64,000 nucleotides of DNA from assembly GCF_029625315.1 (NCBI RefSeq), contig NZ_CP121110.1:4306501-4370500 (forward strand). The letters are read 5' to 3'. Shown piece after piece: positions 72 through 62,581 of the stretch. Under the pieces are notes generated by a model. It had not been told where the DNA came from. It searched no databases and was given only the letters and a program-made list of their open reading frames with translations. Both the position numbers and the translations under genes were made by a program. Position 1 is the first letter of the stretch. Each line of letters opens with the position of its first letter. This DNA is from Flavobacterium ginsengisoli. Lineage in GTDB: Bacteria; Bacteroidota; Bacteroidia; Flavobacteriales; Flavobacteriaceae.

Positions 72-1090
72 ATGGATGCCTATATTAATGGTATTTCTTA
101 CTATTTGCCCGAGAAGGCAATTACAAATGATGAGTTGCAAGAGATCTTTCCTGAATGGGAAGTTGATAAGGTAGCATCTCGCATTGGCGTAGAAAAAAGA
201 TATTTGTCATCAACTACTGAATTTACAAGTGATTTAGCTATCGCAAGTGCAAATAAATTAATTGAGGATTATAACATTGATAAATCCTCAGTTGATTATT
301 TGATTATTTGTTCACAGACGCCTGATTATTTATTGCCTGCAACTTCATGTATTGTACAAGATAAGACAGGTTTGCCAAAATCAATTGGAGCATTAGATAT
401 TAATCTAGGCTGTTCTGGTTATATTTATGGTTTAGGCTTTGCAAAAGGATTAATATTTTCGGGCCAGGCTAAAAATATCATTTTTGTGACTTCTGAAACA
501 TTAACAAAATTTATCCATCAAGACGATAAAGCTAATAGAGCTTTATTTGGCGATGCTGCAACAGCGACATTTATTACATCTGAACCAAATAAAGATTTTT
601 TTCTGCAAAGATAAAAAACTTTAAATATGGTACCGATGGAAGTGGTTATGATAAATTGATAATTAAAAATAGTGCTGGACATTTAAATAAAAAGGAATCG
701 AACAGTATTTTGGATGACGATGGAAACTTTGTTTTAAATGACGATTATTTGTATATGAACGGTACTGAGATTTTTAATTTTACAGCTTTCGAAATTCCAA
801 AATTAATAAAAAACATTTTAGATGTAAATAATCTAACATTAGATGATTTATCTATGACTGTACTACATCAGGCAAATTCATTTATGCTTGATTTTATTAG
901 AAAAAGAAGTGGCATTGCTTCAGAAAAGATGTATATTAATTTACTCGAAACAGGAAATACTTTATCTTCAACAATTCCAATAGCGCTTTGTAAATTAATT
1001 GAAAACAATCAGATAAAAGAGCATAATAAAATTTTATTATCGGGATTTGGTGTTGGTTTATCCATGGCAGGTGTAATAATCGAAAATTAA
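72..1090 (+). CDS. 3-oxoacyl-ACP synthase III-like (KAS III/FabH family) enzyme, one apparent frameshift
   Basis: KAS III-type thiolase-fold condensing enzyme, which would join a short acyl-CoA to malonyl-ACP or transfer an acyl group. Starting at ATG 72 places the active-site Cys at residue 114 (DINLGCSGYIYGL), close to Cys112 of FabH. The partner His is in VLHQANSFML and the Asn in GNTLSST, so the Cys-His-Asn triad is complete. The reading frame breaks at a T7 run (596-602); eight Ts join both halves into 339 residues, the normal family length. It lies directly upstream of a pseudaminate synthase gene, so a role in making an acyl decoration for the sugar is plausible rather than bulk fatty acid synthesis; that is inference. 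The break looks like a sequencing undercall, not a pseudogene. Confidence 0.82.
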
Positions 1091-1101
1091 AAATTAAAGA
1101 A

Positions 1102-2142
1102 ATGAAAATTAGGAATATTTCTATAAATGAAAATTCACCAGTATTTATAATTGCTGAATTATCAGCAAATCATAATGGAAGTTTAGAAGTAGCTTTAGAA
1201 ACTGTAAGAGTCGCAAAAAGGGCTGGTGCTGATTGTATAAAATTGCAAACATATACTGCAGACACAATAACTCTTGATTCCCAAAAAGATGATTTTATGA
1301 TAAAAGGATCAATATGGGATGGAAAGAATTTACACGATTTATACAAAGAGGCTTATACGCCGTGGGAATGGCATAAAACTATTTTTGAGGAGGCAGAAAA
1401 AGTAGGTTTAGTTTGTTTTTCATCACCTTTTGATAAATCATCGATAGATTTTTTAGAAAATTTAAATACACCTGCATATAAAATTGCTTCGTTTGAAATA
1501 ACAGATATCCCATTAATTGAATATGCAGCATCTAAAGGTAAACCTATTATCATTTCTACTGGTATTGCAGAGCAAGAAGATATAGAGTTGGCATTAGATG
1601 CTTGTCGAAGAATGGGAAATAATGATATAGCATTATTAAAATGTACTTCTAGTTACCCTGCTCCTATAGAAGAAGCAAACATGAGTATGGTAAAAGACTT
1701 AGCAGAAAGATACAATATTATTAGTGGATTATCTGATCATACTATGGGGGCAACAGTGCCTATTGTTGCCACAGCTTTTGGTGCTAAAATAATCGAGAAA
1801 CATTTTATCCTTGATCGAGCAATAGGAGGGCCAGATGCTTCTTTTTCTATGAATGAAGAAGAATTTGGCGCTATGGTAAAAGCTGTGAGAGAAGCAGAAA
1901 GTGCTATTGGTGTGGTTGATTACACATTAACGGAAAAACAAGTTGCAGGTAAAGATTATTCTCGTTCATTGTATGTTGTTGAAGATATTAAAGCTGGGGA
2001 AATTATTACAGAACAAAATGTTAGATCAATAAGACCCGGGTATGGAATGCATCCTAAGTATTATAATGATATTTTAGGTAAAGAAGTTGTTGTCGATTTA
2101 GAAAAAGGAGATGCTTTAAAGTGGGATAATATCATTAAATAA
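1102..2142 (+). CDS. pseI: pseudaminic acid synthase (NeuB family)
   Basis: 346 residues. The NeuB family condenses phosphoenolpyruvate with a 6-carbon amino sugar to give a 9-carbon nonulosonic acid. The N-terminal barrel (about 1-280) has IAELSANHNGS and KLQTYTADT, and the C-terminal antifreeze-like SAF domain begins near SRSLYVVEDIKAGE. LYKEAYTPWEWH and GGPDASFSM are typical of the PseI (pseudaminate) branch, whose substrate is 2,4-diacetamido-2,4,6-trideoxy-L-altrose, rather than of Neu5Ac synthases. It sits 11 bases after the KAS III-like gene. The rest of a pse pathway (pseB, C, H, G, F) is not in the window and could lie upstream of base 1. Subfamily assignment is by motif only; the legionaminate branch is the alternative. 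Confidence 0.85.
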   Translation: MKIRNISINENSPVFIIAELSANHNGSLEVALETVRVAKRAGADCIKLQTYTADTITLDSQKDDFMIKGSIWDGKNLHDLYKEAYTPWEWHKTIFEEAEKVGLVCFSSPFDKSSIDFLENLNTPAYKIASFEITDIPLIEYAASKGKPIIISTGIAEQEDIELALDACRRMGNNDIALLKCTSSYPAPIEEANMSMVKDLAERYNIISGLSDHTMGATVPIVATAFGAKIIEKHFILDRAIGGPDASFSMNEEEFGAMVKAVREAESAIGVVDYTLTEKQVAGKDYSRSLYVVEDIKAGEIITEQNVRSIRPGYGMHPKYYNDILGKEVVVDLEKGDALKWDNIIK

Positions 2143-2149
2143 TATCTAT

Positions 2150-3173
2150 ATGAAACAAAAAATACTTACAGTTCTTCTTGTTTTAATGTTTTGTTCTTCT
2201 TGTACGGCTCAAGATGAAGATGATTCATTTAAAATACCAACTCAACGAATAACCTTTAATGGAGGAGAGTTGTATAATGCATTTACGGATTTGGTTTTTT
2301 TGATGATCAATTTTTTTGATATACAGAGAGTCAGATAAACATGCTTATGGTCTTAATGGAGTTGCTAAAATTTATAATAGTTTAGATGGTAAACAATGGA
2401 CATTTTTAAAAGAGTTTAGTGTTGATGGAGTTGATCTACGAGACCCTAAATTTTCTATAGATGGCAATAAATTATCAGTTTATCTTCATGGTTCTGTTTG
2501 GTTGAGAGGAGGAGTTGTTGAAAGTAGAGATTTTATTTCTAATTTGAATAAGGTTGAATGGAGTAACCTCCAACAGGTATTACTCGATAATAAGAAATCA
2601 GGAACTACAAAAATTATAGGTAATGAATCTTGGCCTTGGCGCGTGACTTGGTATAAAGATGTAGCTTATGTTTTCGGATATAATGGAAAGGGCATATTTG
2701 ACTTATATACTAGTAGGGACGGAATAAATTTTGCAAATGATGGAGAGTATTTTGATAAAATAGGAGCAATTCCCACCGAAGCAACAATTCGAGTTGACAA
2801 AAATGGAGTTTTTTATTGCTTTGTGAGAAGAAATGAAGGGTCTTCTGTTTTGTTAAAATCAACAAATAAAGGAGAAAAATGGGAAACCATTGGTGAGATT
2901 CCAATTGTTAGTATAGGAGGACCTAATTTTGTGTTTTATAAAAATGGCTTGATTTTCTCTGGAAGAGACAATGGGAAAGTTATTGTCGGTTATTTTGATT
3001 TGACCAACAACTCATATAGTAAGTTCAAAACTTTGCCTAGTGGTGGTGATTGTGGTTATCCTGGAATGGTCATTAAAGATAATGATTTGTGGATAAGTTA
3101 CTATTCTGCACATGAAAATAAAATTAGCACAGCTATTTATCTTTCTAAAATTGATTTGACGACTATCAATTAA
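2150..3173 (+). CDS. sialidase-like (BNR/Asp-box) lipoprotein, two apparent frameshifts
   Basis: Begins with a lipoprotein signal, MKQKILTVLLVLMFCSSC, with the lipobox Cys near residue 18, so it should be an exported lipid-anchored protein. The body resembles six-bladed sialidase propellers: Asp-box repeats SLDGKQW, SRDGINF and STNKGEKW, and candidate catalytic arginines in YRESDKHA, CFVRRNEGS and FSGRDNG. Two T7 runs (2295-2301 and 2311-2317) each need an eighth T; the joined protein is 341 residues and reads smoothly across both. The gene starts 8 bases after pseI. It could trim or bind a nonulosonic acid in the cell's own polysaccharide, but whether it is catalytic cannot be decided here. 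Several glycosidase propeller families share Asp boxes. Confidence 0.68.
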
Positions 3174-4860: not shown

Positions 4861-6170
4861 ATGAAAAGTAGTTTGACTTTAACAGTTGAAAACGTTTTAA
4901 AATCTATCTCTGTAGACAAAAAATATAAAGGTTATGCTTTAGAAGAATCTTTGATAGCCTTTAAGTATTTACAAAAATTAGGTTTACGAAATACGATTTG
5001 GTGGAAAAGTCTAATTAAACTTTCGATAGGTTTTATAAAAAAAATATTTTTTTATAAAAAGTTAATTCTAAGGGAAAGCTTAAAAAAAGATAAATATAAA
5101 ATATTAGTTGCAATTAATTTTTCAATTGCTGATACAAGACATTCTAAAATTCTAATAGATTTTATCAATGAGTTTCCTGACAAGATGGATTTACTTATTG
5201 TAACAAATCAAAAATGTGTTGAAGAACATTGTTTGAAAAATGATTTTTCTTGTATTTTTTTAAAAACTCTATTTACAATTTTAATTTAGGTGATTTACTT
5301 AGTGGTTATACTATTAATGAGAGCTTTATTTTTAAAGAATATAGAGAATATATTGATTTTCTAAATGTTCTTTACCTTAGGGTAACACCGAAAATAGTAA
5401 TTACAACGCAAGATTTTTTATTGCCTGATTTTTATTTTGCCAAGGTTGCAAATTTTCAAAACATCCAGACAATAACACATCAACATGGTGAAATACCAAA
5501 TTCTGAGAAATCTCTTTATAGTGTGCTTTTTTCAGATTATTTTATGTGCTGGGGAGAAGTCTCAAAAGAAAGATTGAAACGTAGCATAAATGAAGATAGG
5601 ATCAAAATTGTTGGAACAACAAAATTTGGTAAAATTAGAGCTAAAAATAGTTTTATTAAAGAAAATATTTTAATTACTCCAACGGTATTTCCGTTACATC
5701 AATTAAAATTTATATTAAGCAATACTCTAATTGAAATAAAAGATTTTAATAATATAATAATAAAAACACATCCAAGTCAAAATACCAAAGAAATTAAGGA
5801 TGTAATTGATGAAATATGTAAATTGAATGAAATTACAACAAATATAAAGGTCATTGGGAGTGAAGAAGGATTAATAGACTTATTAGATAATGCATTTATT
5901 CTAATAAACATTAAATCTGGAGCATATTTAGAAGGAGTTCTCTCTGGTACATCTTTAATTGATCTTGATCTTGATGAAGTTAATAGTTCATTATTTCAGA
6001 ATGCTGATGCGTTTATAAAAGTTAGTGATTTGAAAAATGAAATAGCTAAAAGAAAATCAGATTCAAAATACAATGAAAGTATAATCAGAAATCAAAATCT
6101 ATTATTAAAAAAGAATATATTTTCATCTACTTTAGAAACCGAAATCGAGTTTGTCAAAGGCTTATTATAA
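4861..6170 (+). CDS. GT-B-like glycosyltransferase of unassigned family, one apparent frameshift
   Basis: 436 residues once the T7 run at 5255-5261 is read as T8; as printed the frame ends at 5289. The C-terminal half has the look of a GT-B transferase: THQHGEIPNSEKS, SDYFMCWGEVSKERLK, KIVGTTKFGK, IIIKTHPSQ and a late NIKSGAYLEGVLSGT that resembles a nucleotide-sugar loop. Similar layouts occur in capsule synthesis proteins and CDP-glycerol/polysialyl-type transferases, but I do not recognise a specific family. Because it lies between the pseI/wzx genes and a Wzy gene, transfer of a nonulosonic acid is one possibility; that is inference from position only. Confidence 0.6.
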
Positions 6171-14689: not shown

Positions 14690-15238
14690 ATGAAAGTTGA
14701 AGAAACCTATATTAAAGATTTAGTCATTATTGAACCAACTGTTTTCGGAGACGAAAGAGGTTATTTTTTTGAATCTTACAGTAAAACGAAATTTGAAGAT
14801 TTAGAAATTAATATTGATTTTGTTCAAGATAACCAGTCATTTTCAAAATATGGAACATTAAGAGGCTTACATTATCAAAATCCTCCTTTTGCACAAACGA
14901 AATTAGTGCGTGTTTTAGAAGGTGAAATTATTGATGTTGCTGTAGATTTAAGAAAAGATTCACCTACTTACGGAAAATCTTTTAGTATTTTACTTTCATC
15001 TGAAAATAAAAAGCAATTGTTAGTTCCTCAAGGATTTGCCCATGGATTTTCGGTTATTAGCGAAACCGCATCAGTAATGTATAAATGTGATCAATTTTAT
15101 AATAAAGCTTCTGAAGGAGGAATCAAATATGATGATCCATTTTTAAATATTGATTGGGGAATGGATTTGAACGACGCAATTGTTTCTGATAAAGATCAGA
15201 TTTTGCCGTTTATTGAAAACTGTAATAGCTTATTTTAA
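14690..15238 (+). CDS. rmlC: dTDP-4-dehydrorhamnose 3,5-epimerase
   Basis: 182 residues, the normal length for RmlC. It carries FGDERGYFFESYSK, FVQDNQSFSKYGTLRGLHYQ with the catalytic His, GEIIDVAVDLRKDSPTYG and LLVPQGFAHGFSV. It double-epimerises dTDP-4-keto-6-deoxyglucose in dTDP-L-rhamnose synthesis. Its stop overlaps the ATG of rmlD (TAATG), and rmlA follows, giving the order rmlC-rmlD-rmlA. No rmlB (dTDP-glucose 4,6-dehydratase) is present in the window. Confidence 0.95.
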   Translation: MKVEETYIKDLVIIEPTVFGDERGYFFESYSKTKFEDLEINIDFVQDNQSFSKYGTLRGLHYQNPPFAQTKLVRVLEGEIIDVAVDLRKDSPTYGKSFSILLSSENKKQLLVPQGFAHGFSVISETASVMYKCDQFYNKASEGGIKYDDPFLNIDWGMDLNDAIVSDKDQILPFIENCNSLF

Positions 15239-16084
15239 TGAAAAAAATTCTTGTAACGGGGGCAAATGGGCAATTAGGATCAGAACTTTCAGTTTTATCA
15301 TCAAAATATCCAGAATATGAATGGTTTTTTGCCGATAGAACAAAAGCCACATTAGACAATCTAGATCTTTTGCCTATTCAATTAAATGATATTAAAGCAG
15401 ATGTGATTTTTAATTGCGGTGCTTATACTGCAGTTGATAAAGCTGAAACAGAAAAAGAGCTAGCTTTTACAGTAAATTCTTCGGCAGTAGAAATAATTGC
15501 GAAATATGCTTCAGAAAATAAGGTGAAGTTAATTCATGTGTCCACAGATTATGTTTTCGATGGTACTTCATCAGTTGCTTTAAACGAAGAAGCATTTACA
15601 AATCCTATTAATGCCTATGGGGAAAGTAAATTAGCAGGAGAAATTGCATGCATGAAGCAAAATCCAGATTCAATTGTTGTTAGAACTTCTTGGGTTTACA
15701 GTAAATTTGGAAATAACTTTGTAAAAACCATGCAACGCTTAATGCAAGAGAAAGAAGAAATAAGTGTTGTGAATGATCAAGTTGGTTCACCAACTTATGC
15801 AACTGATCTAGCGCAGGCAATGATCAATATTGTTAATTCACCAAATTGGATTTCAGGAACATATAATTATTCTAATGAAGGAGAAATAAGCTGGTATGAA
15901 TTTGCTTTGAGCATTAAAGAGTTAGGAAATTATAATTGCCAAGTAAACGGCATTCCATCTTCTTCATATCCAACACCTGCAAAAAGACCGAGTTTTTTCA
16001 TTATTAGATAAAAATAAAATAAAATCAATCTATAATTTAGAAATTCCATATTATAAAGAAAGTTTAAAAAAGATATTTCTATAA
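15238..16084 (+). CDS. rmlD: dTDP-4-dehydrorhamnose reductase, one apparent frameshift near the end
   Basis: RmlD reduces dTDP-4-keto-L-rhamnose to dTDP-L-rhamnose. Visible are the NAD(P) motif VTGANGQLGSEL, FNCGAYTAVDKAE, HVSTDYVFDG and NAYGESKLAGE with the Tyr-Lys pair. As printed it stops at 16011 after KRPSFFIIR. Reading the T6 run at 15993-15998 as T5 gives KRPSFSLLDKNKIKSIYNLE and a stop at 16084, which matches the conserved RPxxSxLD end of the family and gives 281 residues. The extra T is likely a sequence error. ATG overlaps the rmlC stop. Confidence 0.9.
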
Positions 16085-16152: not shown

Positions 16153-17048
16153 ATGAAAGGGATTATATTAGCTGGAGGTTCTGGCACAAGATTACACCCA
16201 TTAACTTTAGCGGTTAGTAAGCAATTAATGCCCGTATATGATAAACCCATGATATACTACCCATTATCAACTTTGATGATGGCAGGAATTAGTGAAATTT
16301 TGATAATCTCCACACCTCATGATTTGCCTCATTTTAGAAAACTTCTGGTGATGGAAGCGCGATTGGTTGTAAGTTTAGTTATGCAGAACAACCAGATCCA
16401 AATGGTTTGGCTCAGGCTTTTGTTATTGGAGAAGAGTTTATAGGCAAAGACAAAGTGGCTTTAGTGTTAGGAGACAATATCTTTTTTGGAACAAATATGC
16501 AAGAACTTTTAAAAGATAATGCTAATCCAGATGGAGGAGTTGTATTTGCCTATCACGTTGCAGATCCTGAAAGGTATGGAGTAGTAGAATTTGACGAAAA
16601 CAAAAATGCAATTTCAATAGAAGAAAAACCTTTGGAACCAAAATCAAATTATGCTGTTCCGGGCTTATATTTTTATGATAATTCTGTAGTAGAAATTGCC
16701 AAAAATATTAAGCCAAGTGCCCGTGGTGAATATGAAATAACAGATGTAAATAAAGTTTATCTTGAAAAAGGACAGTTAAAAGTTGGAATATTAAGTAGGG
16801 GAACGGCTTGGTTAGATACTGGAACATTTAATAGTTTGATGCAGGCAGGGCAATTTGTGCAAGTTTTAGAAGAAAGACAAGGATTAAAAGTGGGTTGTAT
16901 CGAAGAAATTGCTTGGAGACAAGGTTTTATTGATGATCAACAACTTGAAAAGTTAGCACAACCACTGTTAAAATCAGGATATGGATCATATTTAATAGAT
17001 TTTCTAAAACAAAAGAAAAAAGTGTTAAAATTTAATTTGTATCTTTAA
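16153..17048 (+). CDS. rmlA: glucose-1-phosphate thymidylyltransferase, one apparent frameshift
   Basis: First enzyme of dTDP-rhamnose synthesis. [18 protein letters not shown] is the nucleotide-binding signature, followed by [18 protein letters not shown]. The frame breaks after HFRKLL: a missing G at 16347-16348 (GG for GGG) restores [20 protein letters not shown] and then [25 protein letters not shown] and [10 protein letters not shown]. The repaired protein is 298 residues, a few longer than usual, ending in a Lys-rich tail. The broken spot is in a short G run, so the error is not limited to long homopolymers. Confidence 0.9.
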
Positions 17049-17119: not shown

Positions 17120-19086
17120 TTGAACACAGAAAAACCAAATAATATAACCTCTTTGTTATATAATACCTTTTCGCCAAGAAATCTTCGGGCAAATATTAAT
17201 AATCTAAGTTATTTGCCTAGATGGATTATTGTTGGTATAGATGTTATGGTTTTGGTTTTTTCTTTTTGTCTTACCTATTTGCTTTTTGAAGGTACGGCAA
17301 TAGGGTATCTTATTACGTCTCATAATTTTTTCTTTGTTGCAGGATTAATTATTGCCAATGTGTTTTTTTCTGGCTTTTTAGAACATACTCAGGAATTATT
17401 AGGCATTCTTCCTATATAGATGCAATAAAATTGTTGTTTTCTCAAATGTCTGTTCTTGTATTTTTCTTGTTTATAAATTTAATTTTTGAATTATATACAG
17501 GGCATAAAGCATTTTTAAACACTGCCCTTTTTATTAATTTAGTATTGTCTTTTTGTGGACTTTTCTTATATCGTGTTGTAGTAAAGCAGACATTTGAAAT
17601 GTATTTTTCTGAAAAAGCTACGACTAAATTAATTCGAACTGTAATTTATGGCACAGATGCTAATGCAATTTCTGTTGCAAATGCATTGAAATTTGAAAGT
17701 CCTTCTCGTTTTAAAATAGTTGGTTTTGTTGATAAGAATAATCAGAATGCGTCTAAACGTATGCTAGATCTTCCTATCCTTATTTTAAGAAAGAAGTTGC
17801 CTGCTTTAATGCGTTCTGTAGCTGCAGAAGGTGTAATTATTGCAGATAAAAGTTTAAGCAAAGACGAACAGCTTATTATAGTTGATCAATGTTTGGAGTT
17901 TAATTACAGAGTATATACAGTACCTCTTATTTCAGATTGGGAAAATCAAAAAGAAATTTCGCAAAAAGTTAAGAATATCCAAATCGAAGACTTGTTAGAA
18001 AGAAAACCTATAGTTCTAGATAGTAGATCTATTTCTAAGCAGTTAAAAGATAAAACAATTTTAATTACAGGAGCAGCAGGATCAATAGGAAGTGAGATTG
18101 TAAGACAAGTTTTGAATTTTAATCCAAAAAATGTTATTGTCTTAGATCATGCAGAAACACCATTGCATAATTTGTGTTTGGAAACTCAAGCAATGAATGT
18201 AAGCACTAAAATAGTTGCGGTAATTGCAGATGTAAGAAGTAAAAAAGCTTTAGATAAGGTTTTTAAAAATTATAATCCACATGTAGTTTTTCATGCTGCA
18301 GCCTATAAGCATGTACCTTTGATGGAAGAAAATCCTTCTCAGGCAATTCAAACTAATATCAAAGGAACTAAAAATCTTGCTGATTTGGCTTGTAAATATC
18401 ATGTGAAGAAATTTGTAATGGTTTCTACAGATAAAGCGGTTAACCCAAGCAATGCAATGGGAGCCAGTAAACGAATCGCAGAAAAATATGTACAGTCTTT
18501 ATTCTTAAAAAATCAAAGAGAGAACATTCAAGGAGGGACAAAATTTATAACGACTCGTTTTGGAAATGTTCTGGGTTCAAATGGGTCAGTCGTTCCGTTG
18601 TTTACTAAACAAATTGCAGAAGGTGGACCTGTAACAATCACACATCAAGACATTATACGTTATTTTATGACAATTCCAGAAGCTTGTCAACTTGTATTGG
18701 AAGCTGGAGCTATGGGGAATGGAGGAGAAATCTATATTTTTGATATGGGTAAACCAGTTAGAATTATCGATTTAGCTCGAAAAATGATTAAGCTGGCTGG
18801 TTTTATACCAGATAAAGAAATCAAAATTAAAATTGTCGGATTAAGACCTGGAGAAAAGCTTTATGAAGAATTATTAAATGATACTTCAAAGACTCTTCCA
18901 ACATATCATAATAAAATTATGATTGCGCAAGAAATTCAAGACGAGTATGAGAATCTTCATATTGATGTTGATGAGTTAATTGGAATTGCTGATTTTTACG
19001 AAAATGATGATATTGTTGCTAAAATGAAAAAAATAGTTCCAGAATTTAAAAGTATGAATTCGACTTTTGAAGTTTTAGATAAATAA
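17120..19086 (+). CDS. WbpM/FlaA1-like nucleoside-diphosphate-sugar 4,6-dehydratase, one apparent frameshift
   Basis: 655 residues after the T5 run at 17375-17379 is read as T6; otherwise the first part ends at 17419. The N-terminus has about four membrane segments, then a CoA-binding-like Rossmann region (IRTVIYGTDANAISVA), then the catalytic SDR domain with TGAAGSIGSEIVRQVL, FHAAAYKHVPLMEENP, VSTDKAVNPSNAMGASK and TTRFGNVLGSNGSV. This is the long PglF/WbpM type, which makes UDP-4-keto-6-deoxy-HexNAc at the membrane and would supply the aminotransferase at 13544. The start is TTG 17120; no in-frame ATG is suitable. A terminator follows at 19120. Confidence 0.88.
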
Positions 19087-20078: not shown

Positions 20079-21294
20079 ATGAAAGATATAATATTAAAAG
20101 CCGAAAATATTTCTAAACAATACCGTTTAGGTCAAGTCGGTACAGGTACTTTAAGCCATGATTTGAATCGATGGTGGCATAAAATTAGAGGAAAAGAAAA
20201 TCCATATCTAAAAATAGGTGATACTAACGATCGTTCTACCAAAGGAACGTCAGATTATGTTTGGGCTTTACAGGATATAAATTTTGAAGTTGAAAGAGGA
20301 GAAGTTTTAGGAATTATTGGAAAAAATGGAGCAGGAAAATCTACGCTTTTAAAAATACTTTCAAAAGTTACGGCTCCAACAACAGGTAGTATAAAATCTC
20401 GAGGACGTATTGCTTCTTTATTAGAAGTTGGCACAGGGTTTAATGGAGAAATGACTGGTCGAGAAAACATATTTCTAAACGGTGCTATTTTAGGAATGAC
20501 CAAGAAAGAAATTACTTCAAAACTGGATGAAATTATTGAGTTTTCTGGATGCGAACGTTATATTGATACTCCAGTTAAAAGATATAGTTCTGGAATGACA
20601 GTTCGTTTAGCATTTGCTGTTGCGGCTTTTTTAGAACCTGAAATACTAGTTGTTGATGAGGTTTTAGCCGTTGGTGATGCCGAATTTCAAAAAAGCAATT
20701 GGTAAAATGCAAGATATTTCTAGGGGTGAAGGAAGGACAGTGTTATTTGTGAGTCATAATATGCCAGCAGTTAGAAGTCTTTGTACTAGGGGGTTGATTT
20801 TAGAATATGGAAAAACAGTTTTTGAAGGAAATATTAATGAGTCGATAGATTATTATTTAAATAATAACTTAATACTTGAGAAACTTTATCTTAATAAAAA
20901 AGTACCTAAAGTTAATGGTATTAAAAGTGTAAAAATTCTGGAGGCTAATGAATATTTACACCATAGTGAAAGCATTAAAATTGAAATAAGGCTTAATAAT
21001 CAAATACAAAATATTAATGTGGGTATTGCAGTTCTAAATTCTGATAAAGTCAAAATATTTACCACATTTCATTTAATGGCTTCTAAATCCGATATTGTTT
21101 TTTGCAAGATTCCTGCGAAAACATTATTAAAAGGAACTTTTAGTTTAGATGTGGCAGTATTTGAAGATTCAAGAGTTTTTGAATATTTAAATGATATTTG
21201 TAATTTTCAAATTGAAGATTTAGATAACGATTATAAAATATATAATGGAAGTATTGGTGACATAAAAATTGATTGCAAATGGTACGGAAATTAA
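20079..21294 (+). CDS. wzt: polysaccharide ABC transporter ATP-binding protein with C-terminal glycan-binding-type domain, one apparent frameshift
   Basis: About 404 residues. ATPase domain (1-250): Walker [16 protein letters not shown], signature [15 protein letters not shown], Walker [16 protein letters not shown] and the switch His in VLFVSHNM. The frame breaks at the A6 run 20690-20695; A5 (FQKAIGKM) or A8 (FQKKAIGKM, closer to the family) rejoins it. After the ATPase comes a C-terminal beta-rich extension ([20 protein letters not shown] onward) like the Wzt domain that recognises the exported chain. Adjacent to wzm with no gap. Confidence 0.88.
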
Positions 21295-21801: not shown

Positions 21802-22613
21802 ATGAAATTAAAAAAGCTACGAAAGATATATCGTATATTATTTCCGGTAAAATTTTCTGAGAAACAAATTTTTATTAATGAATTGCAATCAAACTGTTTA
21901 ATAAAGGAGTTTAAAGAAACAAATTCTTTATTCTTACTCAACTTATGTAATGGTAAACAGATTTATCTTAGAGACTATACCCATAGTGATTACTCCGTTT
22001 TTACTCAAATATTTAAAGATGAAGAATATAAAATAGCTTTGTCTTTTTTTAAGTATAATAGGGATTTTAAGAATGCAGTAATGATTGATGTAGGTGCAAA
22101 CATAGGTTATGCAACTATATATTTTCAGGAAAAATTAAAGTTTGACCATATCATTTGTATAGAGCCTTCAATATCTAATTTTAATATTTTAAAAAAAATA
22201 TTGAATTAATAGATAATTCAAAAGACATTTTACTTCTAAATAAAGCCATTGCAGATAAAGAAAATTTGAAATTCAAAATTGAAAACAATTTTAGAGATGG
22301 AAAGGATTGGTCAATTACTACAAAAAAAAGTGATTTTGGAGAAATTCAAGGAATTACACTCAATGAAATAATAAGGGAAAACGACTTAAAGGAAATAACT
22401 TTATTAAAAATAGATATTGAAGGTGCTGAAAGATTTATTTTCCAAAGTTCTACAGATTTATCATTTTTAAATATCACAAAAGTTATTGTTATTGAAATTC
22501 ATGATGAGTTTAATGTAAGAGATAGTATTTATAAGATATTAAGCGATAAACAATTTGTATTAATAGAATCTGGTGAAACAACAATCGGTATAAATAAAAA
22601 TTTCCTCAATTAA
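21802..22613 (+). CDS. FkbM-family methyltransferase, one apparent frameshift
   Basis: 270 residues after the A8 run at 22191-22198 is read as A9; as printed the frame stops at 22209. SAM-binding motif VMIDVGANIGYATIYF and IICIEPSISN, then LNEIIRENDLKEITLLKIDIEGAE with the family's (L/I)KIDIEGxE signature. FkbM-type enzymes O-methylate sugars or other small groups. Capping methylation of an ABC-exported chain would fit its position right after wzm/wzt, but that is inference. Confidence 0.8.
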
Positions 22614-24403: not shown

Positions 24404-24406
24404 AAT

Positions 24407-25525: not shown

Positions 25526-25591
25526 GTATTCTATAATTTCTATTATTGCTTTATACGATTTAGAAATGTTAATCAAAGAAAATTAGAAAAT

Positions 25592-26383
25592 ATGGATACG
25601 ATTGATAAATCTAAAATTGCCATTCTTACCACTGTTACAAATTTTGAGTTGTATAAAAGAACATCTACAATTTTTCCAGAGGAGATTGATAAAATCGTTA
25701 TTGATGGAACTAATGGGAGTATGGTTTAGAGAGTATAAACTATATGTTTAAGAAACTCAACAATAAAAAGTATGAGTGGATTATAATGGCAGATGAAGAC
25801 ATTTTTTTCTATGATTCTAATCTTGTTTTCGATTTGATCACGTACATGGACAAAAATAATTATCAAATATCTGGAGTTAGAAATGGTAGATTAATTAAAC
25901 ACAGAATTAATAACCCAGAAGTAATTGACACTTTTTTCTATGTAATAAATTATAAGAAATATACGGCTTTAAGTCGGTCAAAGAACACCAAATATTTATT
26001 CCAGAAATTTTTGAGAATAAAGACTATTCTTTTTAAAATACGATTATGATATAAAGAGCCTTGATGAATCATATTACTGTTTTTTTTTTTGGTCTATTCT
26101 AAAAGGCTTTAAAATTTTATATCTCGATACAATAAATCCAGTTAAAAATGATGAAACAGGAAATATAGTTCTTGATGTAAATGGAAATAAAATAGCTTTT
26201 CACAGCTGGTATGCTCGTGCCTATAAAGTTCATGAAGATCAAACCAAAAGAATTGATCATTATATAAGAGAATTTAAGATTGAAGAAGCATTAATCAATT
26301 TAAAAGATGTGCATATTTTTAAAAAGAGATTTTTTAATTTTAAGAAAAGATTTAAAAAAATAAAAAAATATATAGGAAAATGA
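25592..26383 (+). CDS. glycosyltransferase-like protein of unrecognised family, three apparent frameshifts
   Basis: Three one-base restorations (G run at 25715-25717, A run at 25957-25959, T run at 26030-26034) give a continuous 264-residue protein beginning MDTIDKSKIAILTTVTNFEL. It includes YEWIIMADEDIFFYDSNLVF, which looks like a GT-A metal site (DED), then GVRNGRLIKHR, SYYCFFFWSILKGFKILYL and KIAFHSWYARAYKVHEDQ. Its stop overlaps the next ATG (ATGA at 26380). I do not recognise the family; the DED block, the His-Trp near the end and the neighbours suggest a sugar transferase or an accessory to one. Confidence 0.55.
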
Positions 26384-37438: not shown

Positions 37439-38319
37439 TGAAGAAGTTTTTATTATACATATTAGGAGTTTTTCTTTTAACAGCTGTGATGGCAGTTCTT
37501 TTGGACGGATTGTATACTTATGCTTTTATACAGTCCAAAAATCGAGGAAAAATAGAAACCGTTTTCAATTCTACAGCAAAGAAGTATGATGTGGTTATTT
37601 TAGGCTCTTCAAGAGCTAATAACCATTTTGTTTCTCAAATGTTCGAAGATAAAGGATTAAATACGTTTAATTACGGAATGAGTGGCGGACATTTATTTGA
37701 AGCTTCATTAATGTTAAAATTAATGGTAGAAAGAAAATATGAAATAAAAAATTTAATTCTCGAAGCAGATTTAAATCTTTCTAACGATCAGGAATCTGAG
37801 GGAGTTGTCGCAAAATTTCTTCCCTACATACATTGTTCAAAAGCCATTAAAGATCATTTTTTACCAGAACCAAATTTCAACGAATTATATTATATCCCTT
37901 TTTACAGATATGTAAAATTCGATTCGAAAATTGGTTTTCGAGAAATCTATAAAATTGCTGTAAACGAAAAAACTAATGCATTAGACAATTTAGGATATTA
38001 CCCTTTAAAGAAACATAAAAATGGTAATATGAAAAATAATATTGTTAATCTAAATCCGTTGCCACATAATAAATATTACGAGGAAATTAAGAGTATTTGT
38101 AAAAAAAATAATATAAATTTTATTGCCGTTATGACTCCAATGTGCGAAAATGTTGTTGGAATGAATTACTTTGATAAGGTAAAAAAAGCGTATCCTGAAA
38201 TTCATAATTATGAAAATGTTGTTGTAGAAAATAAATATTTTTCTTCATGCGGTCATATGACAAATGATGGAGCTCGATTATTTACCGCAAGAATTATCAG
38301 AGATTTTTTTGGGAAATAA
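37438..38319 (+). CDS. SGNH-hydrolase-like membrane-anchored partner of MBOAT, copy 1
   Basis: 293 residues. One N-terminal membrane anchor (FLLYILGVFLLTAVMAVLL) puts the rest in the periplasm. YDVVILGSSRANNHF is the GxS block of SGNH-type enzymes, VILEADLNLS may give the Asn/Asp region, and CGHMTNDGARLF resembles the C-terminal Asp-His motif. Such proteins (AlgJ/AlgX, PatB-like) transfer acetyl groups delivered by MBOAT proteins. It is translationally coupled to the MBOAT gene and has a paralogue immediately downstream. Confidence 0.72.
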   Translation: MKKFLLYILGVFLLTAVMAVLLDGLYTYAFIQSKNRGKIETVFNSTAKKYDVVILGSSRANNHFVSQMFEDKGLNTFNYGMSGGHLFEASLMLKLMVERKYEIKNLILEADLNLSNDQESEGVVAKFLPYIHCSKAIKDHFLPEPNFNELYYIPFYRYVKFDSKIGFREIYKIAVNEKTNALDNLGYYPLKKHKNGNMKNNIVNLNPLPHNKYYEEIKSICKKNNINFIAVMTPMCENVVGMNYFDKVKKAYPEIHNYENVVVENKYFSSCGHMTNDGARLFTARIIRDFFGK

Positions 38320-38331
38320 TAAATATAGGCA

Positions 38332-39205
38332 ATGAAGAATTTTTTAATTTATATATTCAAAATTTTAGTATTAACTTTTGTTTTGATGTTTATATTGAAT
38401 AAAATTTATTCATATGCCTTTCTCCAATCGAATAAAAGAAGTAAAATCAGTCTTATTTATAATTCGCCGCCAACAAATTATGATGTTGTAATATGGGCTC
38501 TTCTAGAGCAAATAATCATTTCGTGACAAAAATGTTTACAGATACGGGGCTAAAAACATTTAATTTCGGAATGCAAGGTTCTAAACTGTTTGAGTCTGAT
38601 TTGATTCTGAAATTACTTTTAGAAAAAAAAATAAAATCAAAAATGTAATAATTGATGTTGATGTTACACTAAAATCTGAAAACAAATCAGAGAGAACATT
38701 TTTGATGTTTTTGCCTTATCTTGATGATTATCATGTTGTTAGATGGCATTTTGAAGAATTGGAAGACTTTAACAGCTTTTATTATATCCCTTTTTATAGA
38801 TACCTAAAATTTGATTCAAAAATTGGTTTTAGAGAGATGTTTTCTTCTGTCTTAAATAAAAAAAGTAATGAAATTGGTAATGGAAGATATTATCCTTTGC
38901 CTGAAAATAAAGGAAAACTAAATGCCGAAATTTTAGATTTTCAGCCACAAAGGAATAAATATTATGAAGAAATTAAAAAGATTTGTAAAGTAAATAATAT
39001 TAATCTCATTGCAATTATGACACCTATGTGTGAAAAGGCTGTAGTTAATGATTACTTCAAAAAAGTCAATATGCTATATCCTGAAATTTATGACTATGAA
39101 AATAAGATAATTGAAGATAAATATTTTTCTACCTTTGAACATATGAATGATATGGGGGCCAAAGCTTTTACAACAAAAATTTTAAACGTTTTTTTTAATA
39201 AATAA
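38332..39205 (+). CDS. SGNH-hydrolase-like membrane-anchored protein, copy 2, two apparent frameshifts
   Basis: 291 residues after restoring a T near 38494 (giving VVILGSSRANNHFVTKMF) and an A in the run 38633-38636 (giving KKIKIKNVIIDVD). It then aligns along its whole length with the protein at 37438: N-terminal anchor, GSSRANNHF, YYIPFYRYLKFDSKIGFRE, NKYYEEIKKICK, IAIMTPMCE and FEHMNDMGAKAFT. This is a tandem duplication. It may modify a different position, or the two may act together. Its stop overlaps the next ATG (TAATG). Confidence 0.7.
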
Positions 39206-40359
39206 TGCATATTGCTTTTTTAACCCCAGAATATCCCCATTCAAAAACACTGCCATCCGGTGGATTGGGTACTAGTGTAAAAAATCTTGTATCAGCTTTA
39301 ATTGCTGAAGAAATTAAAGTTTCTGTATTTGTTTATGGACAGAAAAACCAAGAGGTTATAAAAGAAGATAATGTCGAAATTCATCTTATTAAAAACAAAA
39401 AATATAAGTTTTTAAGATGGTTTTTTTATCGTAAATATATAGAGGAATATTGCAACTCAATTATAAAAAGAGAGTCTATTGATCTAATAGAAGCCGCTGA
39501 TTGGACAGGAATAACAGCTTTTATGAATTTCAAAATTCCATTAGTAATTCGTTTTCATGGAAGTGACACTTACTTCTGCCATCTAGAAAATAGAAAACAG
39601 AAGATAAAAAATTTCTGGTTTGAAAAATTGGCCATAAATCGTGGGCAAGCATTTATTGCGCCAACTAAATTTGCGGGAGAAATTTCAAAAAAACTTTTCA
39701 AAATTCGAGAAAAAGAAATCAAAATAATTCATTATGGGATTAATCTAAGAAATTTTGAAAACCAAATTCCTCATCAATTTGAAAAGAATTTGATTCTATA
39801 CATTGGAACTTTAATTAGAAAAAAAGGTGTTTTAGAACTGCCGGAAATTTTTAGCAAAGTTCGAAATGATTTTCCAAGTGCTAAATTAATTTTAATAGGA
39901 GCAGATTCTTTCGATATAAAAACAGGTTCAAAATCGACTTGGGAATTAATGAAAAATTTGTTTAATGAAGATGATTTAAAACACGTTCATTATTTAGGTA
40001 AAATTCCTTATGATGAAATTCAAAATTACATAAGGAAAGCAAATGTATGCATATTCCCAACTTTTGCAGAAACTTTAGGAATGGTAACAATAGAATCGAT
40101 GGCTATGCAAAAAGCAGTTGTGAATAGTAATATTGGCTGGGCACAAGAACTTATTGTAGACGAAGAAAGCGGTTATTTGGTTCACCCTTCAAGTCATGAT
40201 CTATATTCTAATCGAATTATTCAATTGCTAAAAAACAATTCACTTTGCCTAGAAATTGGAAAGAAAGCAAGAATTAGGGTAGAACTTAAATTTGATATCA
40301 ATAAGTTAGTAAAAGAGAATATAGAATTTTATAGAAAGATAACCAATCAAAAAAGGTAA
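39205..40359 (+). CDS. glycosyltransferase family 4
   Basis: 384 residues, intact GT-B protein. MHIAFLTPEYPHSKTLPSGG with GGLGTSVKNL (acceptor-side Gly loop), LVIRFHGSDTYF, IIHYGINLRNF, ILYIGTLIRKKGVLELPEIF and FPTFAETLGMVTIESMA, the E-x7-E donor site. Retaining enzymes of this family use NDP-hexoses. Start and stop both overlap their neighbours in TAATG sequences, so it is translated as part of a run from the MBOAT gene through 41888. Confidence 0.88.
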   Translation: MHIAFLTPEYPHSKTLPSGGLGTSVKNLVSALIAEEIKVSVFVYGQKNQEVIKEDNVEIHLIKNKKYKFLRWFFYRKYIEEYCNSIIKRESIDLIEAADWTGITAFMNFKIPLVIRFHGSDTYFCHLENRKQKIKNFWFEKLAINRGQAFIAPTKFAGEISKKLFKIREKEIKIIHYGINLRNFENQIPHQFEKNLILYIGTLIRKKGVLELPEIFSKVRNDFPSAKLILIGADSFDIKTGSKSTWELMKNLFNEDDLKHVHYLGKIPYDEIQNYIRKANVCIFPTFAETLGMVTIESMAMQKAVVNSNIGWAQELIVDEESGYLVHPSSHDLYSNRIIQLLKNNSLCLEIGKKARIRVELKFDINKLVKENIEFYRKITNQKR

Positions 40360-41911: not shown

Positions 41912-42934
41912 ATGGTGAAGATATATACAGAACATAGTTTTTTGAATGCTGATAATAGGAAAATAATATTTCCATTATTATTTGATTTAGTATATCTGCC
42001 AAATGATAAAGCGAGATCAAATTTTAATTTAACAGATTCTATTTTAGAAGCAGACGTTGCTATTTTTCCTGTAGATATTATTTCTTTTTTGAGAAAAGAT
42101 AAATCTAATTTTTTTGAAAATTGGATTTCAAAAGTATCAGAATATAAAGTTCCCATTTGGATTTATGCAGCTGGCGATTTTGGACTTACATTTAAGAATG
42201 ATAATGTTTTAACTTTTAGATTAGGAGGTTTCAATTCAAAGTTGAGTAATAATTCATGTATAATTCCTTGTTTTGTAAATGATCCTTATGATAGAATTTT
42301 AAAAAATGATTTTTTTGTACTTTCTAAAAGCGAAAAGCCAAATATTGGCTTTGTAGGAAATGCAAATGGTTCATTTTCTAAATTAATTAAAGAGTTTATT
42401 TTATATTTAAGAAGGAATGTAATTAACAGAAAATTCAAATTCCCAGAAGATTATCATCCTTTTTATCCCGCAGGAAAAAATAGACATAAATTATTGCAGA
42501 AGATTCAGAAGGAAGATAAAATTGAGAGTAATTTTATTTTTAGAGATAAATATCTAGGAGGAAATAAGGATAAAAGCATTAAAGAAAAAACAACTTTAGA
42601 GTTTTTTAAAAATATTCAGGATAATCTATATACTTTTTGCCTAAGAGGAAATGGGAACTTCTCTGTTCGATTTTATGAAGCATTGATAATGGGCAGGATT
42701 CCAGTTTTAATCGATACAGATGTAAGACTTCCTTTAGTTAATTCGATTGATTGGACTAAACACTGTGTGGTAGTTTCAAAAGATTCTATAATTCAGGACT
42801 TACTAGATTTTCATTTATCCAAGCCAGACGAAGAAATAAGAAAAATACAGGAAAACAATCGAAAATTAGTATTAGAAAAATTGAATAGAGTTGACTATTT
42901 TATTCAAATTAGTAAGCTATATTTGAAAAAGTAA
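41912..42934 (+). CDS. exostosin-family (GT47-like) glycosyltransferase
   Basis: 340 residues. The C-terminal half carries the exostosin signature LRGNGNFSVRFYEALIMGRIPVLI (in part RFYEALIMGRIPVLI), preceded by NIGFVGNANGSFS and a loop around KYLGGNKDK. Exostosin domains are known from heparan sulfate polymerases and plant GT47 enzymes, and are found in bacterial capsule loci. No membrane segment is visible. The gene ends in a TAATG overlap with the next GT2. Confidence 0.78.
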   Translation: MVKIYTEHSFLNADNRKIIFPLLFDLVYLPNDKARSNFNLTDSILEADVAIFPVDIISFLRKDKSNFFENWISKVSEYKVPIWIYAAGDFGLTFKNDNVLTFRLGGFNSKLSNNSCIIPCFVNDPYDRILKNDFFVLSKSEKPNIGFVGNANGSFSKLIKEFILYLRRNVINRKFKFPEDYHPFYPAGKNRHKLLQKIQKEDKIESNFIFRDKYLGGNKDKSIKEKTTLEFFKNIQDNLYTFCLRGNGNFSVRFYEALIMGRIPVLIDTDVRLPLVNSIDWTKHCVVVSKDSIIQDLLDFHLSKPDEEIRKIQENNRKLVLEKLNRVDYFIQISKLYLKK

Positions 42935-43933
42935 TGAAATTCTCTTTAATCATATGCACTTACATGCGTCCTACTCCGTTATTAAAATTATTAATTTCGA
43001 TTAAGGATCAAATTTTATATCCAGATGAAATTTTGATTATTGATGGCTCACTTGACGATAAGACTAAATCGATCTTGGAAAACAATAATTTCGATCATTT
43101 AAAATATTATTTAATCTCAGAGCAAGATAGAGGTTTAACAAAGCAACGTAATTTTGGAATTTCGAAAGTAGACTCAACTAGTGATATAGTCTGTTTTTTA
43201 GATGATGATACAATTCTCGAAACTGAATATTTTGCAAATTTGTTGAATACCTATAATTTGTTTCCAGATGCTTTAGGAGTTGGAGGTTACATTACAAATG
43301 AGATTAAATGGCAAAAAATACCAGAAAGTTATTCAGAAAATAAAAATGAATTTTATTATGATGGTTGGAAACGAAAAGATGGAAGTCGTTTTGTTCTGAG
43401 AAAAAAAATAAATCTGGATAGTGATTGCCCTCCTGGATTTGCTCCAAAATTTTCGCATGGAAGAAGTGTCAGTTTTTTACCTCCGAGTGATAAAATTTAT
43501 CCAACAGAACAATTAATGGGAGGGGTTTCTTCATTTAAAAAATCTGTCTTTGAACAATTTTCATTTTCCACATATTTTCAAGGTTATGGCTTATATGAAG
43601 ATGCTGATTTTTGTTTAAGATTGGCTAAAGAAGGTAAACTATATTTAAATACAGCAAGCAAAACTTAGTCATTATCATGACTCAGCAGGTAGGCCAAATC
43701 AGTATACATATGGCAAAATGGTGGTTAGAAACGGATGGTATGTTTGGCGTATAAAAAACCCTAATCCAATTTTAAAAGACCGTTTAAAATGGAATTCAAT
43801 TACAATTTTATTGATCGTTACAAGATTTGTAAATGTGATTAAAGGTAAAGACAAAAAAGTTGTCTTTACAGAATTTGTTGGAAGAGTTGTAGGCTGGTGG
43901 AGTTTAATATTTAACAAACCAAAACAAAAATGA
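42934..43933 (+). CDS. glycosyltransferase family 2, one apparent frameshift
   Basis: 332 residues when the extra A at 43656-43657 is removed (GCAAGC to GCAGC), giving LNTAAKLSHYHDSAGRPNQY instead of a stop at 43668. GT-A features: FSLIICTYMRPTPLLKLL, IIDGSLDDKT, RGLTKQRNFGISK, VCFLDDDTIL (DxD), MGGVSSFKKSVF and YGLYEDADFCLRLAKEG (ED base). The His-rich HYHDSAG after the break is a usual post-catalytic element in this group. It overlaps both neighbours by a few bases. Confidence 0.82.
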
Positions 43934-51126: not shown

Positions 51127-52193
51127 TTATCTAAAGATACCCAAATCTACTTTTAACGAAAAAATATTAGAATACAAAGCGGTACTTTGATTTCCTAAAT
51201 CGGTTAAAGCATAATCAATCTGTATGCCTTTATATCTAAACCCTAAGCCAATATTAGGCTGAAAGTTTATTTTTTCGGTATTATCTAATTGTGTTACATT
51301 CTGAAAATTTCCTGCTCCAGCTCTTACGAAAACTAAATCGGTATAACCAAATTCAAACCCTAGAGCTGGGTCTATACTTACAGCTTTTGATGAAATAATA
51401 TCATTTGTCTGCTCAAAGCGCATATTTAAATTTGCAGAAGTGACAAGACTACATTCGTTATGGAAATCAAATCTTTTTGAAACTCCTAATTGAGCTTTTG
51501 GCAATGTTATTTCTGTACTTTCCGGCAATTCGTTGTTTTCTCCGGAATTGCATTTGCAATTTTAGCATATTCTTCTTCATCAATATTCCAAACATTGTAA
51601 GTTGTGGTAATATCGCGAAGCATTAAACCAAATTTCCAGTCATTTCTTTCAAACTGAAGTCCGATATCAAATCCAAATCCCCAAGAATTGGCAAATTTCC
51701 CAATTATTCTTCGAATTACTTTTGCATTTACACCATATTGAAATCCATCAACAGGCAATTTTCGAGCATAAGAAAAAGTAAAGCCATAATCTGCCGTAGA
51801 GAACAAGCTGATTCTGTTATAATCAATATTTCCTTGATTATCGATTAACTGCGTGGTGTCCATAATGTCGTCTACTCCAAAACGAATCATCGAAATTCCC
51901 CAAGCACTTCTGTCATCAATTGGACTTGCGTAACCTATGTAATCGTACTGTGCAATATTGGCGAAGTAGCTGGCGTGCATTAAAGCAATTTGATGATCTT
52001 CAAGATGAGTTAAACCTGCCGGATTCCAGTAACCTGCCGTTACATCATTTGTTGCGGCAGTCACAGCACTTGCCATTCCAAGAGCTGCGGCATCGACCCC
52101 AATATTCATAAATTCATTCGAGTATTTTCGAACGGTTTGTGCATACTGAAAAGTACAGCTACAAAATAATAAAAACACTAAATATTTCTTCAA
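51127..52193 (-). CDS. PorV/PorQ-family outer membrane protein, one apparent frameshift
   Basis: 355 residues when the CC at 51542-51543 (GG on the coding strand) is read as three bases, giving ANAIPGENNELPESTEITL; as printed it stops at 51507. Signal peptide KKYLVFLLFCSCTFQYAQ, then NIGVDAAALGMASAVTAATN and AGYWNPAGL, the start pattern of the PorV/PorQ/UPF0164 beta-barrel family, with amphipathic strands to the C-terminal IFSLKVDLGIF. PorV and PorQ serve the type IX secretion system; which subgroup this is cannot be settled here. The start codon appears to be TTG at 52193. Confidence 0.75.
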
Positions 52194-55466: not shown

Positions 55467-56275
55467 TTTCTTTCATTTTATTTTTATACACAATCTTCGA
55501 TATCCAGATACTTAATTCGTAAATGATTAGCATCGGAATTGCAACAATAGTTTGACTCACAACGTCTGGCGGAGTTACAATTGCAAGCAATAATTAAAAT
55601 AATTACAACGGCGTATTTCCAATATTTTCTTAAAAAAGAAGGAGTTACTAAGCCTAATTTTGTTAAGAAGTAAATTGCAATTGGAAGCTCAAAAAAGATC
55701 GCACTTCCCAAAATACTTGTTTTTACCATTCCCATGTAAGATTCTAGTGTAAACTGATTTTTTACAACATCACTCACAGAGAAAGTAGCAACGAAATTAA
55801 CCGACATCGGAATAACTACAAAATAGCCAAATAATACGCCTAAGAAGAAAAGCATTGAAGAAACAAAGATGAATACTTTTGCATTTTTGCGTTCTTTCTC
55901 ATATAAAGCAGGACTGATAAACTTCCAGATTTCCCATAAAATATAGGGAAAACTCAAGATAAAACCTGCCAGAAGGCACATCCATACAAAAATATTTACT
56001 TGCCCTTCCATTTCTGTATTCTGAATGATAAAATTCAATTCAGTAATACAAATGCTGTCTGCAAATCCTAATGAATGCGATAAATCACAGAACCAAACGT
56101 AGGTAAAAAATGTTGGCCTAATTGGTCCTAAAATAATCTGATCAAATAAATAATCACTGATAAAATAAGTGACAAATGCCATAATACATATTGCAATTGT
56201 ACTTCTAACTAATAACCATCTAAGTTCTTCAAGATGGTCCAAAAATGACATCTCGCCAAGGTTTTTCTTTGCCAT
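55459..56275 (-). CDS. tatC: Sec-independent protein translocase TatC, one apparent frameshift
   Basis: 271 residues when the extra A at 55585-55586 (GCAAGC for GCAGC) is removed; as printed the C-terminus runs into a nonsense tail ending at 55484. Corrected text reads LIIAAIVTPPDVVSQTIVAI and ends MKENV with its stop overlapping the AhpD-like start. MSFLDHLEELRWLLVRSTIA is the TatC N-terminal signature recognised by twin-arginine signals, FISPALYEKERKNAK is the conserved loop, and six membrane segments are visible. An intact TatC is expected, which argues that the break is a sequencing error. Confidence 0.92.
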
Positions 56276-61804: not shown

Positions 61805-61878
61805 TTGACTTCAGGTTTTTTGGTCCAGTAAAGATTGTTATCTTAGTATTCTGATTTTAATAGAATATTCCCCCAAAG

Positions 61879-62581
61879 ATGACAATACAAGAAATCGAAA
61901 AAAAATACAGATTTGAATACCCTTTCTTATACAAACAGTTAGAGGCTGACGGCATGCTAGATGTTGGAGAATATGGTCCAAATTGGTATACAGATGTCTA
62001 TCCTACTTTAAAAGACAATCCGCCTTTGCTTTTACATTCTTATGATTTTGAATCGCTGAATTTAAAATCTGTTGCAGAAGAAATAGAAGAACTTCAAGAT
62101 CCAGAAGATTATCGAAATATAAATCCAGAATTTAAATTTATTCCGTTTGCTAAAAGTGGCGGTGGCGATCATTATTGTTTCTTTTTAAACGAAGAAAACA
62201 ATGGAGATGTGCCGATTGTTTTTGTTTGGCACGACTCTAATGAAGTTAATTATTTGGCAAAAAACCTTCAGGATTTTATTTTCAAAGTTTTATTGATTGA
62301 TATGTCGAAACAAGATGTCTATAATGAACTTACTGATGAGGAATTTAGAGACGATATAGAATCAGTATTTAAATCGCACAAAAAGTATCTGACTGAGCAG
62401 ACAAAACGCAATTCTATCAGCTATTTTAGAACGAGATATAATTGATTACGAAATACATGTTTCGCCAAAAATAGTTGAATCTGCTAGAGGATTATTAACA
62501 GATCATGAATTAGAATCGATTGTTAATGAAGTGATTCCTTTTGATAAAATGAATCAGAGTTTTAAATATTCTAACGATTAG
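61879..62581 (+). CDS. SMI1/KNR4-type protein, one apparent frameshift near the end
   Basis: 233 residues. The first 185 residues have the SMI1/KNR4 look: EIEKKYRFEYPFLYKQLEAD, FKFIPFAKSGGGDHYCFFLN and VPIVFVWHDSNEVNYLAKNL. As printed it stops at 62445, but the frame one base over continues SAILERDIIDYEIHVSPKI and ends FKYSND at 62581; removing one T near 62412 joins them. The exact corrected base is uncertain. Many SMI1/KNR4 proteins are immunity proteins for polymorphic toxins, but no toxin gene is present in the window. Confidence 0.68.

Follow-up and report, generated by a model that had tools for sequence, protein, structure and literature searches.

Modification-mediated nanopore errors at GCAGC and GCTGC have been reported for native DNA of some strains of Listeria monocytogenes, with the authors tying them to a methyltransferase-encoding system and to the GCWGC specificity (W being A or T) of M.BatI (Chiou et al. 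2023, PMC10687267). M.BatI is described as an orphan, prophage-borne C5 methyltransferase with GCWGC as its target on both strands and GCSGC on one strand (PMC8936443). In a Klebsiella benchmark with the basecallers then current, Dcm sites (CCWGG) are given as the source of approximately 70% of consensus errors (PMC6591954). The present analysis concerns frameshifts in a window of 64,000 nucleotides (positions 4306501-4370500 of a single contig of 5,414,540 bases, completeness 95.5%) from a genome whose closest named relatives belong to Flavobacterium, with F. ustbae among the top RecQ matches. A surface-polysaccharide cluster fills most of this window (to approximately 49,950), much of the remainder being housekeeping genes as judged with Pfam. 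The frameshifts are genuinely present in the printed sequence and are almost certainly sequencing mistakes, not biology. The genome adds a further case to a class of error already described, namely modification-linked nanopore error. A search for literature on GCWGC-linked nanopore errors in Flavobacterium found none.

Very probably, the sequence derives from a nanopore-type assembly without effective short-read correction, with miscalls in long runs of A or T and at GCWGC sites carrying a methyl group (perhaps also CCGG). The frameshifts would then be consensus errors of a single-contig assembly that lacked effective polishing. Runs of at least eight true A or T bases would often be called one short, giving rise to most of the T7 cases in the sugar cluster, and a methylated base within GCWGC (perhaps CCGG) of native DNA would lead to a miscall, either as an extra base or as scrambled middle letters. 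Methylation is suspected because the errors are tied to a motif such as Type II methyltransferases recognise. The resemblance to the Listeria case lies in the same pentanucleotide being a systematic error site; there, mismatches are described as dominant, with hybrid assemblies of the same isolates, while here an extra base was also found at 68 of 493 sites (PMC10687267). As in the Klebsiella benchmark (PMC6591954), errors cluster at what would be a C5-methylated motif alongside homopolymer errors; unlike that benchmark, the motif here is GCWGC (perhaps with CCGG) and CCWGG is not special.

Changes at GCWGC, A/T runs and CCGG

Two genomes were used as yardsticks, namely G103 (same species, 40 contigs, completeness 100, approximately 98.3% identical) and the next closest, G006, which shows 90% identity to the window over 55484-59522. 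The comparison with G103 covered approximately 368 kb of aligned sequence in the window (block W) and in sampled gene blocks outside it (blocks D and E), using alignments of at least 500 bases at 94% identity or above. For motif and run counts the letters of G103 were taken as the reference, so that the true state is that read from a same-species relative.

At the 493 GCWGC sites of G103, 244 changes were found (171 substitutions, 68 one-base insertions and five others), with 249 sites unchanged, compared to 19 of 268 GCWGC sites of this genome that differ in G103 (Fisher p 3e-36). One-base insertions were identified at 4 of 178 GCSGC sites and at none of the sites for CCGG (173), GATC (896), GANTC (916), CCWGG (185), GGCC (193) and GCGC (439). 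Total change at the other motifs lay at 5-15% (25% for CCGG), with GCWGC far above, and CCWGG was unremarkable, with 21 of 185 sites substituted and no indels. GCSGC was rejected as a full target owing to its few insertions; with this genome as the starting point, a difference is found at 61 of its 212 GCSGC sites, as would be expected if GCWGC sites had been turned into GCSGC by miscalling. Insertions at GCWGC were also found in alignments with G006, ten in block A (the window plus 140 kb) and 14 in block B (a second block approximately 3.4 Mb away), with none between G006 and the genome G008. Furthermore, no 5-mer was depleted as strongly relative to G006 as GCWGC (z -9.9, against -4.3 for the second, with N runs set aside), the depletion being approximately twofold and GCAAGC and GCGAC being in excess.

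Oriented to GCAGC, the outcomes at changed sites were GCGAC (78), GCGGC (34), GCAAGC (25), GCGAGC (19), GCAAC (18) and GCAGAC (17), of which GCGGC and GCAAC can also be produced by ordinary divergence. The outcome was found to depend on the 3' neighbour base, with a mutual information of 0.108 and 0.046 as the highest value among 500 shuffles.

Long A/T runs make up the other main class. Runs of A or T in G103 were found to be shortened here in 6 of 376 cases at length 7, 25 of 92 at length 8 and 9 of 19 at length 9, a rate that climbs with run length and consists mostly of deletions, as is the pattern of homopolymer error. Because 25 of the 92 runs of eight are shortened, a T7 in this sequence will quite often be a true T8. 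Run-length densities resemble those of the relatives and the defect is visible only in aligned comparison, for which reason homopolymer spectra alone were rejected as a detector. A first-pass annotation of the window had named T7 in place of T8 as the commonest defect. This was confirmed for the AT-rich sugar cluster, where T7 runs are the dominant class; it did not extend to blocks D and E, where the extra base at GCWGC is the largest coding class, with 59 coding one-base insertions against eight one-base deletions in coding runs of at least seven (27 more lie in non-coding runs). The annotation was correct about the homopolymer class and missed the motif class, which includes insertions inside GCWGC sites of G103 at 33141, 55586 (tatC) and 62401, with 51542 (a PorV/Q-like gene) lying in CCGG; substitutions occur as well. 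It is very unlikely that every site is a run-length miscall of long reads, as would be the case with homopolymer error alone. The frequent shortening of runs of at least eight, and the many sugar-cluster sites that are T or A runs, agree with such an account; the 59 insertions at GCWGC outside long runs, the 171 substitutions and the three window sites just named do not. The GCWGC counts rule out homopolymer error as the only cause and leave it as one of two.

CCGG may represent a third, smaller and less certain error class. One-base losses were found at 13 of 173 CCGG sites, compared to 2 of 193 for GGCC, 2 of 916 for GANTC, 2 of 493 for GCWGC and none for GATC, GCGC, CCWGG or GCSGC. The class is less certain because CCGG sites as a whole change about as often from G103 (44 of 173) as in reverse (33 of 162), with only the one-base losses being one-way.

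Spread across the genome, gene content and ribosomal RNA copies

Shift points that are broken here and intact in G006 numbered 36 in block A and 14 in block B, against two and one, respectively, in the reverse direction. The corresponding numbers with G008 were 30 against five and 13 against three, while the control pair of G006 and G008 gave four against four in block A and two against one in block B. Points with no spanning open reading frame (ORF) on either side (82 in A, 78 in B) and those with a spanning ORF on both sides (10 and 8) were excluded from the counts against G006. Outside the window, in blocks D and E, 263 genes were fully aligned with G103, and 87 of them possessed a frame-breaking gap, 53 at GCWGC; a few of the 87 may be true strain differences. 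In every block compared, the median ORF was shorter here than in the relatives. Errors occur across the sampled blocks of the 5.4-Mb contig and are not a peculiarity of the window.

GCWGC insertions passing the event filter were found at 59 of 439 coding and 6 of 33 non-coding sites (p 0.43). Codon changes in blocks D and E comprised 104 nonsynonymous and 76 synonymous changes at GCWGC, compared to 617 and 2,984 elsewhere. From 55 genes listed with GCWGC insertions, 19 were scanned for gene names: one, which holds five inserted bases, has a match to sucB, and three others contain domains of complex I or ferredoxin type and were read as nuoF, nuoI and an antiporter-type subunit. Four of the 19 resemble central metabolism, with the others being transporters, surface proteins, other enzymes and unknowns. 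Frameshifts are thus not purged from important genes as would be expected of pseudogenes, given that coding and non-coding rates are similar and that sucB, complex I-type genes and 23S ribosomal RNA (rRNA) are hit.

The rRNA operons allow copies within the same genome to be compared. A GCWGC site of the spacer reads GCGAGC, GCGGC, GCGAC, GCAGC and GCAGC in the five operon copies, i.e. four readings, and only one other difference (position 755) occurs in the stretch shared by the five, apart from gap placement in an A run. Such scatter between copies indicates uncertain consensus calls, as real mutation does not scatter in this way. A GCWGC site near the start of 23S reads GTCGC in five of five readable copies. 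One operon has lost a consensus pair of the Rfam large-subunit (LSU) model, at model position 1115 (195.3 bits, compared to 204.4 for the same stretch in G103). This altered form and the ordinary form each occur once among the copies of this genome readable at that place; the ordinary form was found elsewhere in G022 (six copies), G010 (four), G124 (five), G222 (three), G072 (six) and G103 (one), and G006 gave no match to the 23S pattern and none to the 16S model. The alignment end inside three 23S copies was discarded as a biological feature, since it corresponds to a run of N in the letters. Separately, 16S differs from that of G103 around column 473 by a paired four-base change, identical in the three full copies and a partial one, which looks like true within-species variation.

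These results bear on three explanations in which the frameshifts are real. Gene decay by mutation at runs and GCWGC, for instance in a mutator or driven by methylation, is extremely unlikely to be their origin. Methylated cytosines generally mutate faster, a surface-sugar cluster is a plausible site of decay and the 16S sites are intact; against this, frames are broken at GCWGC in 53 of the genes aligned beyond the window, with sucB and genes of complex I type among those affected, coding and non-coding rates show no measurable difference, 23S is altered, the spacer copies disagree, and G103 possesses a C5 methyltransferase of this genome at 99% identity yet keeps its GCWGC sites. Slipped-strand phase variation of the surface-sugar genes, the assembly having captured their off state, is scarcely credible: A/T runs in glycosyltransferase genes do account for many of the hits in the window, as it would require, but the runs are short, and instead of being confined to tracts of contingency genes the defects occur in all sampled blocks and in many kinds of gene, with tatC, rRNA and central metabolism affected in the same way. 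A/T runs are known slippage sites in some endosymbionts, and real frameshifts could be rescued by such slippage at transcription or by ribosomal frameshifting; this was assigned a practically negligible probability, as rescue leaves the GCWGC insertions, the nonsynonymous scrambles and the rRNA changes unexplained.

Methyltransferases and the likely source of a proposed methylation mark

The genome encodes two C5 methyltransferases, and a search of it with the N6_N4 family gave no match, other methyltransferase families not having been searched. One C5 methyltransferase gene (G000:C1:4007468-4008451) adjoins a convergent Vsr gene. The other (G000:C1:3188603-3189559) is followed by a gene for an HpaII-family restriction nuclease, and from this arrangement the two likely form a CCGG restriction-modification pair. 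We infer a nanopore platform and 5-methylcytosine as the mark, with the Vsr-adjacent methyltransferase, by elimination, as the putative maker of the GCWGC mark and the HpaII-adjacent one as that of the CCGG mark. M.BatI makes an orphan C5 methyltransferase a plausible source of such a mark, and its one-strand action on GCSGC (PMC8936443) may be set beside the few GCSGC sites that gained a base here. Unlike the prophage-borne M.BatI, the enzyme of this genome adjoins a Vsr gene, and its GCWGC specificity is a prediction.

Among 299 genomes searched, the Vsr-linked methyltransferase was found to be common to G103 (99%), G006 (95%), G222 (95%) and others. A Vsr gene accompanied the methyltransferase at 23 of the 29 loci examined (13 of them with identities of 87-100%), and the Vsr-methyltransferase pair is kept in part of this Flavobacterium clade. 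G103, G006 and G222 carry the gene without the signature, which suggests that the cause is sequencing and not an effect of the enzyme on evolution. The methyltransferase loci of G124 and G072, at approximately 10 kb each, were too short for the GCWGC signature to be tested. The chances are roughly even that the miscalls are a methylome fossil, with the C5 methyltransferase and its convergent Vsr gene being kept by the clade and the enzyme methylating GCWGC throughout the genome. If this holds, the systematic errors in public single-contig assemblies could by themselves suffice for finding methylation motifs, and GCWGC would count among the motifs that a Vsr enzyme protects.

Several observations weigh against the attribution to sequencing error at a methylated motif. 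Sites with the same three bases on each side share an outcome in 0.265 of 68 pairs, where 0.307 is expected. The outcomes are asymmetric between strands approximately threefold (blocks W, D and E against G103), GCTGC becoming GTCGC 59 times and GCAGC becoming GCGAC 19 times. Five GCWGC sites in 16S are unaltered in three full copies, together with two that are readable in a partial fourth, the chance of 16S sites being clean in this way having been estimated at approximately 5% from the context table. No GCWGC insertions were found in approximately 24 kb of G222, which carries the same methyltransferase at 95% identity but may have been sequenced on another platform. In addition, part of the differences from G103 is true strain divergence, and the non-coding sample of 33 sites is small, making weak selection compatible with the rates given above.

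For annotation, approximately a third of the aligned genes (87 of 263) would tend to be called broken by a pipeline, and the genome should be corrected before genes are called dead. Such an assembly produces spurious pseudogenes, amino-acid variants and rRNA heterogeneity, and lengthens branches artificially. Depletion of GCWGC with an excess of GCAAGC and GCGAC offers a simple test for other assemblies, and the motif hints at the methylation system. As a flag for genomes, the ratio of GCGAC to GCWGC was rejected, being too noisy in the 69 named loci of at least 15 kb (of 80). The highest ratio of the 69 was that of a Flavobacterium phragmitis locus (GCWGC 5 and GCGAC 15 in 22 kb), which may be due to chance.

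Frameshifts within the window

Junctions were located by a frame-switch scan, in which 3,477 ORFs of relatives were compared to the window with tblastn and proteins continuing in another frame were recorded. This resulted in 26 junction clusters, 21 of them with at least two relative loci; with loci of one genome merged where possible, 20 junctions had at least two source genomes. Junctions 23027, 31007, 52358 and 59830, with one locus each and the first two at approximately 40% identity, were not counted as defects, nor was 57317 (nine loci), where two gene starts overlap. Junction 5254 was kept despite its single supporting locus, as it falls on a named T7 run.

The first-pass annotation had listed approximately 31 single-base indels in 24 genes and taken them for uncorrected long-read errors, not gene decay, a reading that is supported by the spread of the defects, the motif counts and the scatter among rRNA copies, and also by related Flavobacterium genomes, frames being intact in G006 and G008 and broken here far above the reverse count. 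Of its 17 named coordinates, 15 were independently backed by relatives, 24416 was backed indirectly and 44075 was reached by no relative. The frame-switch scan itself backs 14, namely 596, 2295, 2311, 5255, 15993, 16347, 20690, 22191, 24656, 24930, 25379, 30635, 51542 (69 loci from approximately 67 genomes) and 55585 (tatC; 95 loci from approximately 89 genomes), with 2295 and 2311 being seen jointly as a net two-base shift. At 24416, proteins of relatives start to match at residue 3, in frame 3 and from 24414, with a nearby ATG in another frame, as found by hand. At 20690 the shift is a net two bases, where a single base had been proposed.

Table 1. Genes of the window with frame changes and the comparisons on which each is based.
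Feature	Coordinates	Strand	Evidence
KAS III (FabH-type), two ORFs, break near 599 in a T7 run	27..1090	+	Pfam N- and C-terminal halves in separate ORFs; 2 loci, both G103
Gene with no match in Pfam; frame shifted by a net two bases over 2295-2312, which holds two T7 runs	2290..3173	+	6 loci, 5 genomes
Gene broken near 5254 in a T7 run	4861..6170	+	Single relative locus
rmlD, frame change near 3' end; T run 15994-16000 one longer than in G103	15238..16011	+	5 loci; G103 alignment; Pfam RmlD
rmlA, broken near 16347; one base fewer than relatives, outside a long run	16153..17048	+	4 loci; G006 and G103 alignments; Pfam NTP_transferase halves
Polysacc_synt_2 gene, broken near 17367, T7 run	17120..19086	+	G103 alignment; Pfam in second ORF; missed by frame-switch scan
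wzt-type ABC ATPase, broken at 20690; A run two bases shorter than in G103	20079..21294	+	8 loci, net two bases; G103 alignment; Pfam ABC_tran and Wzt_C halves
FkbM methyltransferase gene, broken near 22190	21802..22613	+	2 loci; Pfam in second ORF
GT4 glycosyltransferase gene and the region after it; frame changes near 24416 (indirect, frame reading), 24656, 24940, 25381, 25718 and 26031	24404..26049	+	Last five shifts: 5, 5, 4, 3 and 3 loci
GT2-type gene, net two-base shift near 27002	26380..27454	+	10 loci, 9 genomes; Pfam
GT2-type gene, broken near 30635, T7 run	30153..31063	+	2 loci, approximately 43% identity
NeuB gene, extra base inside GCWGC at 33141	32404..33183	+	2 loci; G103 alignment; Pfam
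MBOAT gene, frame change at 36049-36056, T7 run (T8 in G006)	36003..37438	+	G006 DNA alignment; N-terminus in frame 3, body in frame 2; Pfam MBOAT
Gene with shifts near 38327, 38493 and 38630	38264..39208	+	G006 alignment; 18 loci at 38493, 16 at 38625
GT2 gene, one base inserted at 43655 (reading GCAAGC); GCWGC class probable (G006 has no GCWGC there)	42934..43927	+	5 loci; G006 alignment
PorV/Q-like outer-membrane gene, broken at 51542 within CCGG	51127..52193	-	69 loci; G103 alignment; Pfam PorV
tatC, extra base inside GCWGC at 55586	55484..56275	-	95 loci; G006 and G103 alignments; Pfam TatC
SUKH (SMI1/KNR4) family gene, extra base inside GCWGC at 62401	61879..62445	+	9 loci; G103 alignment; Pfam

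A plasmid search found nothing, and a protein search returned generic names only. Relative to contig C34 of G103, the polysaccharide cluster is a mosaic, with only 12157-20760 and 31215-34760 of window positions 1-47132 aligning at 94% identity or above; positions 47132-64000 align to G103 at this level throughout. Downstream of the SUKH family gene, positions 62602-63675 encode a protein with DUF7821 and DUF6630, in what is perhaps an immunity-gene neighbourhood.

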